Assembly: GCF_024198255.1 (NCBI RefSeq)
Contig: NZ_JAJVKW010000006.1
Location: 1 to 64,000, forward strand
Reading direction: 5' to 3'
Length of the DNA stretch: 64,000 bases
Source: Myxococcus guangdongensis
GTDB taxonomy: Bacteria; Myxococcota; Myxococcia; Myxococcales; Myxococcaceae
Part shown: in pieces, positions 59,088 to 64,000 of the stretch
Position numbering within the stretch: the first letter of the stretch is position 1
Layout: each line of letters begins with the position of its first letter
The notes under the pieces: generated by a model
The model's input: the letters and a program-made list of their open reading frames with translations, nothing else
Told to the model about the DNA's origin: nothing
Database searches by the model: none
Translations under genes and position numbers: made by a program

Positions 59088-59591
59088 ATGCTCGAGCCCC
59101 TGGCGCGTCCTCTGCATCTGGTCCTGGTCTCTCCCCAGATTCCCCCCAACACGGGCAACGTGGCCCGGCTGTGCGCGGTGACGGGCTGCCGGCTCATCCT
59201 GGTGGAGCCCCTGGGGTTCTCCATCGATGACCGCCAGCTCAAGCGGGCGGGGTTGGACTACTGGGACAAGGTATTTCTCCGCCTGTATCCAACGTATGCG
59301 GCCTACGTGGAGGCGTATCCGGAGGCGCGGCGGTGGTTGTTCTCGGCGCGGGCCCAGACGTCGTTGTTCGAGGCGCGGTTCGAGGCGGGGGACCACCTGG
59401 TGTTCGGCTCGGAGGTGACGGGGTTGGTGCCGGAGGTGATGGAGGGGGGGACGGGGACGGCGGTGACGATTCCGATGTTGGAGGGGGTGCGGAGCATGAA
59501 CCTGTCCACGGCGGTGGGGGTGGGGACGTATGAGGCCCTGCGACAGGTCTGTTTCAGCGGGGTGGGCAGGCGGGCACCCTCGGCAAGTTGA
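59088..59591 (+). CDS. trmL: tRNA (cytidine/uridine-2'-O-)-methyltransferase TrmL
   Basis: The product has 167 residues, typical length. SPOUT-family motifs: [17 protein letters not shown] (motif 1), [12 protein letters not shown] (motif 2) and [26 protein letters not shown] (motif 3, knot). TrmL methylates the ribose of the wobble base in tRNA-Leu. A tRNA-Leu(TAG) gene is in this window, but TrmL targets the CAA and UAA isoacceptors in E. coli. Confidence 0.94.
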
Positions 59592-59625: not shown

Positions 59626-62600
59626 ATGACCCCGTCGCAGGCCGCCGAAGCGCTGTATTCCGCCCACAAGTCCCGAGCCACGGGCTGGTTGACGCTGTCC
59701 GCTGGAGGGCGCGAGTCGCGGCTGTCCTTGCGCGAGGGTGACCTCGTGGGGGCTCGGCTGGGGTTTGGCTATCAGAGTCCGGCGCAGGCGTTGTTGCAGG
59801 GTGGCCTGTTGGACGCGGAGGCGTTGGACGGGTTGTGGGCGCGGGGTGGGGCGGGGACGCCGGACGAGGATTTGTTGGAGGCGCGGGGGCTGGCCGCGGA
59901 GGTGGTGGCGGAGCAGCAGGTGCTCGCGCAGGTGCGCCGGCTGAGTGAACTGGCGGAGCGCGCGGCCTTCGAGGCGGGGAGTGTGGAGGCGGAGTTCGAG
60001 CCCATCTCCGGGGTGAGGGTGGTGCGGGCCGCGCTGGAGCGGGGTGGGGCGGAGGGGGCGGGGACGCGGGTGTATCGGTGCGCGGAGGTGTCCGCGTGCG
60101 CGCCGTGGGTGACGGATGCGGCGGAGCGGGAGCTGCTGGAGACGCTCGGGGAGTTCCGGCGGCCGGAGGGGTTGACGCCCGTGCACGAGGCGTTGCTGCT
60201 CGTGCTGGAGCGGGAGGGGGCTGTCGAGGCGTTGTCGGTGGAGGAGTGGGAGGCGCTGGAGGAGGCGCGGCGACGGGCGGAGGAGGAGGCTCGTCGGGCC
60301 GAAGAGGCTCGGCTGGCGGAGGAGGCTCGCCTCGCCGAAGAGGCTCGTGTCGCGGAAGAGGCGCGACTGGCTGAAGAGGCTCGTGTCGCGGAAGAGGCGC
60401 GACTGGCTGAGGAGGCTCGTCTCGCTGAAGAGGCTCGTGTCGCGGAAGAGGCTCGCCTCGCTGAAGAGGCTCGTGTCGCGGAAGAGGCGCGACTGGCTGA
60501 GGAGGCCCGTCTCGCTGAAGAGGCGCGACTGGCGGAGGAGGCTCGCCTCGCTGAAGAGGCTCGTGTCGCGGAAGAGGCGCGACTGGCTGAGGAGGCTCGT
60601 CTCGCTGAAGAGGCTCGTCTCCGTGCTGAGGAAGAGCGTCGGGCCGAAGAAGCTCGCCTTGCCGAAGAGGCTCGCCTCGCTGAAGAAGCTCGTGTCGCGG
60701 AAGAGGCGCGACTGGCTGAGGAGGCTCGCCTCGCTGAAGTGGCTCGTCTCCGTGCTGAGGAAGAGCGTCGGGCTGAAGAGGCACGACTCCGTGCGGAGGA
60801 AGAACGACGGGTTGAAGAGGCCCGTCTCGCTGAAGAGGCTCGGCTGGCAGAAGAGGCCCGTGTCGCCGAAGAGGCGCGACTGGCGGAAGCGGCTCGGCTG
60901 GCAGAAGAGGCCCGTGTCGCCGAAGAGGCGCGACTGGCGGAAGCGGCTCGCGTCGCCGAAGAGGCCCGCCTCGCTGAAGAGGCCCGTGTCGCTGAAGAGG
61001 CTCGTGTCGCGGAAGAGGCGCGACTGGCGGAAGCGGCTCGCGTCGCCGAAGAGGTCCGCCTCGCTGAAGAGGCGCGGCTGGCGGAAGAAGCTCGTCTCGC
61101 TGAAGAGGCGCGGCTGAAGGAAGAGGCCCGCGTCGCTGAAGAAGCGCGACTGGCGGAAGAGGCTCGTGTCGCGGAAGAGGCCCGCCTTGCTGAAGAGGCT
61201 CGCGTCGCGGAAGAGGCGCGACTGGCGGAAGAGGCTCGTGTCGCGGAAGAGGCCCGCCTTGCTGAAGAGGCTCGCGTCGCGGAAGAGGCGCGACTGGCGG
61301 AAGAGGCGCGACTGGCGGAAGAGGCTCGTGTCGCGGAAGAGGCCCGCCTCGCTGAAGAGGCCCGCGTCGCTGAAGAAGCGCGACTGGCGGAAGAGGCTCG
61401 TGTCGCGGAAGAGGCCCGCCTTGCTGAAGAGGCTCGCGTCGCGGAAGAGGCGCGACTGGCGGAAGAGGCTCGTGTCGCCGAAGAGGCCCGCCTCGCTGAA
61501 GAGGCCCGCGTCGCTGAAGAAGCGCGACTGGCGGAAGAGGCTCGCCTCGCCGAAGAGGCCCGCGTCGCTGAAGAGGCCCGCCTCGCTGAAGAGGCTCGTG
61601 TCGCGGAAGAGGCCCGCGTCGCTGAAGAGGCTCGGCTCGAGGAAGAAGCCCGTGCCGCTGAAGAGGCTCGGCTTCGTGCGGAGGAGGAGCGTCGAGCTGA
61701 AGAAGCGCGACTAGCGGAAGAGGCCCGCGTCGCTGAAGAGGCTCGGCTCGAGGAAGAAGCCCGTGCCGCTGAAGAGGCTCGGCTTCGTGCGGAGGAGGAG
61801 CGTCGAGCCGAAGAGGCCCGCCTCGCCGAAGAGGCGCGACTGGCGGAAGAGGCCCGCCTCGCAGAAGAAGCTCGGCTTCGTGCGGAGGAGGATCGTCGAG
61901 CTGAAGAGGCGCGACTGGCCGAAGAGGCGCGCCTCGCCGAAGAGGCCCGTGTCGCGGAAGAGGCGCGACTGGCGGAAGAGGCGCGACTGGCGGAAGAGGC
62001 CCGCCTCGCAGAAGAGGCTCGGCTTCGTGCGGAGGAGGAGCGTCGAGCTGAAGAAGCGCGACTGGCCGAAGAGGCCCGTGTCGCGGAAGAGGCCCGCCTC
62101 GCAGAAGAAGCTCGGCTTCGTGCGGAGGAGGAGCGTCGAGCTGAAGAGGCGCGACTGGTCGAAGAGGCCCGTGTCGCGGAAGAGGCGCGACTGGCGGAAG
62201 AGGCCCGCCTCGCAGAAGAGGCTCGGCTTCGTGCGGAGGAGGAGCGTCGAGCTGAAGAGGCGCGACTGGCCGAAGAGGCGCACCTTGCGGAAGAGGCGCG
62301 ACTGGCGGAAGAGGCTCGGCTTCGTGCGGAGGAGGAGCGTCGAGCTGAAGAGGCGCGACTGGCCGAAGAGGTGCGCCTTGCGGAAGAGGCGCGACTGGCC
62401 GAAGAGGCCCGTGTCGCGGAAGAGGCCCGCCTCGCTGAAGAGGCGCGACTGTCCGAAGAGGCCCGCCTCGCAGAAGAGGCTCGGCTTCGTGCGGAGGAGG
62501 AGCGTCGAGCTGAAGAGGCGCGACTGGCCGAAGAGGCCCGCCTCGCCGAAGAGGCGCGACTGGCGGAAGAGGCCCGCCTCGCAGAAGAAGCTCGGCTTCG

Positions 62601-64000
62601 TGCGGAGGAGGAGCGTCGAGCTGAAGAGGCGCGACTGGTCGAAGAGGCGCGCCTTGCGGAAGAAGCCCGTGTCGCTGAAGAGGCCCGCCTCCGAGCAGAA
62701 GATGAGCGTCGGGCTGAAGAGGTCCGCCTCGCGGAAGAAGCTCGGCTTGCTGAAGAGACGCGTCTTCGTGAAGAGGAAGAACGTCGGGCTGAGGAGACTC
62801 GTCTCGTTGAGGAAGCGCGATTGGCTGAAGAGGCTCGCGCTACCGAAGCGGCTCGGCATGCGGAGGAGGCCCGAGTCGCCGAAGAGACTCGCCTCGCTGA
62901 AGAGGCTCGTCTTCGTGCAGAGGCAGAGCGTCTCGCGGAAGAAGCCCGTCTCGCTGAAGAGTCCCGCGTCGCCGAAGAGACTCGCCTCGCTGAAGAGGCT
63001 CGTCTTCGTGCGGAGGAAGCCCGTCTCGCTGAAGAGGCCCGTCGTGCCGAAGAACTCCGACTCGAGGTCGAGCGTCGCAGGGCTGACGCGGTTCGCCGCG
63101 CGAAAGAGGCACGTCAGGCCGAACAGGCCCGCCTCGCGGAGGAACAGCACCAGGCCGAACAGGCCCGCCTCGCGGAGGAACAGCACCAGGCCGAACAGGC
63201 CCGTCTCGCGGAGACCCAGGCCCTTCAACTCCCAGCCCCCACGGCCCCCACGCAGGAGGACATCGGCGAGCTGATGCTCGACGTCGGCGACATCATCCCC
63301 GCCGACGACGTCGAAGAAGCCCCGTCTCCCACCTCGTCACGCGCCTCCAACGTCCCGCCGCTCGCGGCATCCTCCCTCACCCTCCAGGGCGAGAGCCGCG
63401 AAGCCCTGCGCTCCGCCAGGGACCGCGCCCAGGCCGAACTCCTCCATGACATGGAGGAGGCCCTGCGCCGCTCGAAGTCGCAGCCGCTCGAGCCCTGGCT
63501 CGCGGAGGAGCCGGCCCGCTCCGTCGTCCCGCCCACCCGCACCAAGGACCGGGTCCCCGTCCAGGATGAGTCCTGGCGTGCGACGCAGACCTCCCTCACC
63601 TCGGAGCCGGAGCCCGAGGACCTCCCCCTGCTCGAGGCCGAACCCGAGCCCGAACTCTGGGCGGAAGCCGTCCCCGCCGCCGAGCCGCTCCCCACCCCTC
63701 CACCCCGCGCCGCCTCCGGTCCCCCTGTCCTCACCCCGGTCGAGCCCCCGGTCCTGATGCCGGACCTGGACACCCTCATCGAGGGCTCTCCCGAGAGTGA
63801 AGACGATGACAGCCTCTGGGCCTCCCGCCCGGCCCCCGTCGCCGCGCCGCCCCCCCTTCGCCTGGGCCCCACGCCCGCCAAGAACAAGCGGGCCAGCGAG
63901 GACGACCTGTGGCGCATCGTCTCCTTCGACAAGGACGAGGCCGCCGAGACCCTGACCGCCTCCTTCGAAGCCGCCCTCCAGCAGGTGGATGCCCACCTGG
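59626..64000 (+). CDS. Giant Glu/Ala/Arg-repeat protein with DUF4388-like N-terminus (C-terminus beyond the window)
   Basis: Reading from ATG 59626, the frame is open to the end of the window (at least 1458 residues). Residues about 15-80 ([35 protein letters not shown]...) resemble DUF4388, a small myxobacterial signalling module. A globular part continues to about 205. Residues about 212-1196 are an almost unbroken array of six-residue units AEEAR(L/V), with interspersed [12 protein letters not shown] blocks. After it come an acidic, Pro-rich region ([22 protein letters not shown]...) and the start of a further domain ([30 protein letters not shown]). No membrane helix or signal peptide is seen. 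Open frames on other strands and phases here are by-products of the repeat. Confidence 0.88.
60259..63213 (+). repeat. 18-bp (six-codon) tandem repeat array, about 160 units
   Basis: The basic unit encodes AEEAR(L/V). A longer block encoding [14 protein letters not shown] recurs nine times between 61668 and 62640 at intervals of about 90-160 bp. Synonymous changes differ between units, but long stretches near 61150-61470 are almost identical, indicating recent internal duplication. The array should be prone to length change by recombination. Confidence 0.95.

Follow-up and report, generated by a model that had tools for sequence, protein, structure and literature searches.

A putative Hsp70 co-chaperone of Myxococcus guangdongensis with a predicted single alpha-helix of about 1000 residues as a spacer

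The first 64,000 bases of contig NZ_JAJVKW010000006.1 (C6) of Myxococcus guangdongensis, the window of this analysis (genome of 11.2 Mb, 53 contigs), end inside a gene whose 1837-aa product is composed of a divergent DUF4388 domain, a 1004-residue Glu/Ala/Arg tract, an acidic, Pro-rich linker, a J domain with the HPD motif, and tetratricopeptide repeats (TPRs). From its domains, the protein is assigned as an Hsp70 co-chaperone with a giant spacer, and an even chance is given to the proposal that a DUF4388/PATAN-like end, with an anchoring or sensing role, is joined by one long single alpha-helix (SAH) to the J/TPR end. The parts are of known kinds; what is new is their combination, its conservation throughout the family Myxococcaceae, and a tract several times longer than typical SAHs, which have 40 to ~200 residues (PMC5347031), its length being compared here with this quoted range.

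The frame that opens with the ATG at 59626 continues through the end of the window and reaches its stop at 65139 of the contig with no frameshift, so that the interrupted gene which a first-pass annotation of the window had named as a refutation is not seen. The start Met is invariant in 19 aligned family members, and a second in-frame ATG at 59530 is located upstream, but within the upstream gene. A frameshift artefact was rejected because the frame is intact and 15 single-contig genomes agree. The J-TPR part is 98% identical to that of one further genome of the same genus and 89-90% identical to those of M. qinghaiensis, M. llanfairpwllgwyngyllgogerychwyrndrobwllllantysiliogogogochensis, M. 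eversor, and M. dinghuensis. No 19-residue segment anywhere in the protein reaches the hydrophobicity of a membrane span (maximum 0.76), and the protein is therefore probably cytoplasmic.

The tract coincides with the longest Pro/Gly-free stretch of the protein, and its 1004 residues replace the about 985 repeat residues of the first-pass count, which had rightly recognized a Glu/Ala/Arg tract. It is built of 82 AEEARL, 29 AEEARV, 11 RAEEER, and one RAEEDR units, the hexads being interspersed with seven-residue inserts of the RAEEERR type. Residues of opposite charge are paired 349 times at i+3 and 208 times at i+4, those of like charge only 5 and 20 times, respectively. In particular, the pairs E->R(+3) and R->E(+4), which are the favoured salt bridges (PMC5347031), amount to 343 (z = 24 vs shuffles), and the 25 like-charge pairs at i+3/i+4 are strongly depleted (z = -20); over 44 family tracts the favoured-pair z is never below 14.6 and the like-pair z never above -11.0.

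The distribution of hydrophobic residues points in the same direction as the salt bridges. Between 80 and 130 degrees, the power of the Leu/Val positions peaks at 120 (3.5) and falls to 0.004 at 100 and 0.04 at 102.86 degrees, the hydrophobic power at helical angles is below that of the shuffles, and the strict best a/d occupancy has a mean of 0.24 vs 0.30 in the shuffles; a heptad coiled coil was thus rejected for want of a hydrophobic a/d stripe. The local hydrophobic moment, with Ala at half weight, is 0.037 in the tract and 0.076 in the shuffled tract, and the designs of PMC5347031 give 0.161 for AEEAKKA and 0.071 for the monomeric ones. In the AlphaFold2 model of the first 285 residues, a helix occupies residues 205-284, mostly with confidence (block means 93-97 for 211-280). 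Dense opposite-charge pairs, few like-charge pairs, the absence of Pro and Gly, and the lack of a hydrophobic seam are the marks of SAH (ER/K) sequences, and they favour a single alpha-helix as the best sequence-based reading of the tract, not as a measured fact; in cells the tract may well be a monomeric helix. The preference of the first-pass annotation for a long single helix over a heptad coiled coil, based on salt-bridge geometry, is therefore sustained. A PDB sequence search with 400 tract residues returned no match, and the Plasmodium_HRP and LED_rpt matches to the tract in the whole-protein Pfam scan were discarded as spurious, due to low complexity.

Beyond the acidic region, where the first-pass annotation had expected a further domain, a J domain and TPRs are found outside the window. 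The J domain (PF00226) scores 46.8 bits, with a cut-off of 27.8. A 646-aa C-terminal piece, scanned against Pfam at E<=0.01, retrieves DnaJ and eight TPR families, with three TPR families above the Pfam cut-off, together with ARM_TT21_5th and ANAPC3 below it. The same scan detects neither DnaJ C-terminal nor zinc-finger domains, the marks of classes A and B, and the protein is presumably a class C type J-domain protein. The H, P, and D residues are invariant across 15 aligned C-termini, and a J domain with this motif implies work with a DnaK. In the AlphaFold2 model of the C-terminus of an orthologue (L010), confidence reaches 92-96 in most TPRs and 66-76 over the greater part of the J domain, and the linker has mostly low values; the corresponding fold search gives mainly TPR structures among the best 50 listed, designed arrays first and RPAP3, SGT, and CHIP lower.

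At the other end, DUF4388 (PF14332) is matched at E<=0.05 by 18 of 19 family members (best 7.8e-7) and is above its cut-off, with 28.0-58.6 bits, in all four scanned proteins of other families which lack the helix. The NCBIfam scan of the N-terminal part and a PDB profile search using the N-terminal alignment gave no match.

The architecture is conserved in the family. A first search gave 52 loci, 31 of which (L031-L061), J-domain-only or distant, were excluded before any count; among the 21 family loci (L010-L030), 12 begin at a contig end inside the open reading frame (ORF) and L022 has an in-frame stop, and eight were used. A J-TPR query finds matches at E<=1e-40 in 85 of the 96 family genomes and none in the other 11; 40 of the 85 were chosen by hand, with long contigs preferred, and L117-L121 were added later, several shorter ORFs (e.g., G073, G075, G025, G005) lying outside the analysed set. 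Four of the 49 family loci analysed before this addition are cut by contig ends, and 45 are non-truncated. The HPD motif after the tract, the upstream methyltransferase-like gene, and a REC gene are present in all 45, and the N-terminal domain is detected by phmmer in the same ORF in 43 (exceptions L092 and L093). The tract has 313-1279 Pro/Gly-free residues in 44/45 and 71 in L097, from a 4.4-Mb genome; among the later loci, it has 121 residues in L117 and 406 in L120. Since tracts of 480-1279 residues are present in the 15 single-contig genomes, the tract is no assembly artefact.

The length and the period of the repeat are much less constant. Identity to the closest relative (L062) is 98.5% in the N-domain, 98.0% in J-TPR, and 88.1% at aligned tract positions, and the tract of L062 has 1147 residues, a 14% difference. 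The tract alignment contains 17 gaps on the M. guangdongensis side, of 1 (five), 3 (one), 7 (five), 12 (one), 13 (three), 14 (one), and 42 (one) residues, and six one-residue gaps on the L062 side. The repeat period is 6 or its multiples in most lineages, 8 in L096, and 19 in L093, with a secondary period of 20 in L073-L076.

At the DNA level, Tandem Repeats Finder describes the tract as an 18-bp unit in 150.8 copies with 70% matches, and the longest exact repeat within it is 125 bp. The 132 hexads have 63 DNA versions but only 14 peptides, and pairwise codon differences, with the L/V position excluded, are synonymous in 19,813 of 22,355 cases and non-synonymous in 2,542, these and the codon counts treating as independent repeat units which are not. 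As the differences between hexads are mostly synonymous, the coding frame is fixed, despite other open frames of 182-505 codons which the 18-bp period leaves on both strands (window 60347-63274); these spurious frames could be mis-annotated by automatic gene callers. Within its own genome, a 200-aa tract piece has 10 matches at E<=1e-5, all inside this gene, with 150 of 1,320 first-look candidates scored.

Codon usage in the tract has its own peculiarities. In 44/44 genes, GC at third codon positions is lower within the tract than after it (here 0.57 vs 0.92), and in 41/44 tracts Glu-Glu is most often encoded by GAA-GAG; in 28 window ORFs, a control biased by having been picked for high third-position GC, GAG-GAG makes up 0.78 of 51 Glu-Glu pairs. 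The Shine-Dalgarno-like AGGAGG is under the mean of synonymous shuffles in 43/44 tracts, GAGGAG precedes Ala less often than Arg in all nine tracts with enough pairs, and many RAEEER units of this gene retain GAG-GAG-GAG. Avoidance of internal Shine-Dalgarno sites is a possible explanation, and shared repeat ancestry is the alternative.

The contour length of about 150 nm calculated by the first-pass annotation is correct. With a single-helix persistence length of ~15 nm (PMC5347031), the root-mean-square (rms) end-to-end distance of a 150 nm helix is ~64 nm, and it rises to 72-79 nm at 20-25 nm persistence; an rms span so much shorter than the contour fits a leash better than a strut. In the proposed mechanism, the helix would be a semi-flexible leash with these dimensions, while the N-terminal DUF4388/PATAN-like end would anchor or sense, perhaps via the neighbouring REC-DUF4388-transmembrane-TPR protein. 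The leash would keep the J/TPR end apart from the anchored end yet within reach, and a DnaK-type chaperone could be brought in and set to work on clients tens of nanometres away from the anchored end. DnaK recruitment, the leash function, and the identity of the partner are inferred.

The observations that weigh against this proposal concern both ends of the protein and the tract. DUF4388 scores 17.5-17.8 bits on this protein, with a cut-off of 25, so that the DUF4388-like module of the first-pass annotation holds as a family likeness but falls below the Pfam threshold here; the AlphaFold2 model of the N-domain has low confidence (block means 36-62 for residues 1-140), and its fold search against the PDB gives no match at E<=0.001. 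The NCBIfam DnaJ models score far below their cut-offs on the C-terminal part (best 45.5 vs 377.2 bits). No experiment on the protein was found in the literature searched, and no paper describing it was among the matches listed, subscription journals and supplements being outside the search; nor was a locus tag for the gene in M. xanthus DK1622 identified. The basic residues of the tract are nearly all Arg and the tract is Ala-rich, and among designed repeats aggregation is reported for the Arg-only AEEERRR, oligomers for AEEEKRR, and apparent dimers for the Ala-rich AEEAKKA (PMC5347031); since the moment of the aggregating AEEERRR is also 0.071, a low moment alone is no proof of a monomer. 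It is consequently conceivable, though rather unlikely, that the tract is not a monomer and that its Arg/Ala-rich helices associate sideways or as coiled coils into rods, filaments, or a polar or cytoplasmic scaffold. Extra hydrophobic power at helical angles (95-106 degrees), above the shuffled 95th percentile, would agree with such association in three of 44 tracts (L073, L074, and L075, probably Corallococcus), whereas the mean hydrophobic moment is under its own shuffle in 44/44, the hexad turns Leu/Val by 120 degrees per unit, which places the power peak at 120 and not at 100-103 degrees, and the tract is net negative (334 acidic vs 197 basic in 997 residues). Hardly any credence is given to a disordered polyampholyte or condensate-forming linker: low complexity, high charge, and the mostly unstructured linker that follows in AlphaFold2 would suit it, but Pro and Gly are absent from 1004 residues, Ala, Glu, Arg, and Leu are helix formers, the i+3/i+4 pairing is regular, and the modelled helix is mostly confident.

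Other explanations regard the length of the tract. Neutral or selfish expansion, by slippage in a GC-rich repeat tolerated in a linker and yielding length without function, would account for the fast change seen against the closest relative, with its many gaps, and for repeat periods that vary among lineages. It is nevertheless judged improbable, because at least 313 residues are kept in 44/45 non-truncated loci, composition and salt-bridge pattern are maintained while the units turn over, Pro and Gly are absent throughout, and non-synonymous differences between units are rarer than synonymous ones, a contrast that the recent common origin of units exaggerates. The contour of about 150 nm and the folded domains at both ends would befit an exact molecular ruler or a rigid strut serving the machinery of motility or polarity, as the first-pass annotation had envisaged; it had also proposed to compare repeat number among strains. 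Length comparison within the family turns against the idea, since lengths vary several-fold and near-identical orthologues differ by 14%, which argues against an exact ruler, and single helices flex on a scale of ~15 nm (PMC5347031). A ruler or strut is therefore very improbable.

The co-chaperone with a helical leash can be placed in a wider and more tentative frame, which is considered possible but short of an even chance: Myxococcaceae would have acquired the leash and expanded it to ~1280 residues, casting Hsp70 action over an rms distance of 40-90 nm, at tract lengths of 480-1280 residues, away from a REC-DUF4388 partner linked to the membrane, with length loosely set by repeat turnover and with helix physics and codon choice under selection. 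A predicted helix of about 300-1280 residues, kept family-wide by a co-chaperone that can be compared with helix-less relatives, would make two questions testable in a tractable host, namely the maximum length of a single helix in a cell and distance as a regulatory variable of Hsp70 co-chaperones.

Several known systems are similar in part. The SAHs (ER/K) of myosin and INCENP, the latter with 213 residues proposed to act as a 'dog leash' for Aurora B (PMC4571873), are likewise rich in Glu, Arg, and Ala, show the E->R(+3)/R->E(+4) pairs, lack a heptad stripe, and join two functional domains; in contrast, the tract described here has about 1000 residues in Ala-rich hexads, is basic nearly exclusively through Arg, belongs to a bacterial co-chaperone, and is a prediction from sequence. 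Zuotin (Zuo1) is a eukaryotic J-domain co-chaperone with a long helix in its middle domain, between two contact sites (PMC6519820), but the present tract is far longer and ribosome binding is without evidence here; membership in this group was rejected, as no Zuotin-type domain or 4-helix bundle is among the Pfam matches at E<=0.01. In cyanobacteria, the DnaK1-DnaJ3 pair works at type IV pilus motors (PMC9239167), a likeness in that a dedicated J protein and a DnaK serve one cell location; the likeness drawn is one of role, and pili are without evidence here. M. xanthus has 16 J-domain proteins, among which another one, DnaJ1, has been studied (PMC10313047). Numerous hsp70 genes are also annotated in this species (PMC8265645), where SgmX occurs together with two PATAN proteins (PMC11580455). 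By analogy, a role in surface motility or polysaccharide may be considered, as leads and not as evidence.

As regards the origin of the helix, the search at the order level gave matches in 104 of 145 genomes at E<=1e-25, some with a second weaker match; there are therefore paralogues, and among the loci from outside the family a few could be such copies. For 12 non-truncated loci from other families (L104-L108, L110-L116), the best match has the J-TPR part without such a tract, the longest Pro/Gly-free run being 23-42 residues. These helix-less proteins share with the family the J-TPR part, the N-terminal profile (11/12), and the neighbour genes (a REC-gene relative at E<=1e-3 in 11/12, the methyltransferase-like gene in 7/12), and differ in having no charged helix; in the four scanned, DnaJ is above cut-off in 4/4, like DUF4388, and a TPR model in 2/4. 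The simplest account of these matches is that the helix was inserted between DUF4388 and J-TPR and then lengthened. In the midpoint-rooted J-TPR tree, which includes 11 helix-less loci and excludes L110, the family loci with the shortest tracts (L097, L117) diverge early within it, a placement that is weakly supported, and L104, L112, and L116 are on long branches, making their orthology less sure. Moreover, contig-end loci of two further families (L102, L103, L109) contain charged, helix-like sequence, and the insertion may therefore predate the family or have occurred more than once.

Table 1. Coordinates of the gene, of the parts of its product, and of the adjacent genes
Feature	Position	Strand	Basis
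DUF4388 - single-helix - J - TPR gene	59626..64000 in window, to 65139 on contig C6	+	open frame; start Met
Divergent DUF4388/PATAN-like domain, residues 1-198	59626..60219	+	weak Pfam match
Predicted single alpha-helix tract, residues 199-1202	60220..63231	+	hexads AEEAR(L/V), RAEEER inserts
Acidic, Pro-rich linker, residues 1203-about 1605	63232..64000, on to about 64440 past window	+	Pfam scan, orthologue model
J domain, residues 1606-1672	64441-64641, past window, same contig	+	Pfam
TPRs from residue 1711	about 64756-65061, past window, same contig	+	Pfam
REC-DUF4388-Pro-rich-transmembrane-TPR gene, 907 aa	L009:7295-10018, contig C6, just past window	+	Pfam
SpoU/TrmL-type tRNA 2'-O-methyltransferase-like gene	59088..59591	+	upstream neighbour; named from sequence reading, no family search

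The downstream neighbour encodes the REC-DUF4388-transmembrane-TPR protein, whose 19-residue hydropathy reaches 2.54 at residue 666. In 61 of 69 loci, among them 7 of the 12 helix-less ones, its gene directly follows that of the co-chaperone in the same orientation; in the remaining eight, it has no match at E<=1e-10 in three (L102, L104, and L110), the best match of L107 is on the other strand, and L103, L114, L115, and L117 have a REC-DUF4388 match on the same strand beyond the gap limits. This protein is the likeliest candidate for the membrane partner of the anchor, and the two DUF4388 domains, or the REC domain, may link the co-chaperone to the membrane.

Two records of the family search deserve separate mention. 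In L022 (Corallococcus sp. AS-1-6), the stop upstream inside the tract leaves an open frame of 928 aa, so that either the gene is truly truncated or the assembly slipped within the repeat. The record of L026 bears the title Comamonas sp. KCTC 72670, but in the J-TPR tree the locus falls among Myxococcus, and it has the same match coordinates as G066, a genome of the window's own genus; probably the organism name is wrong or the assembly is mixed.

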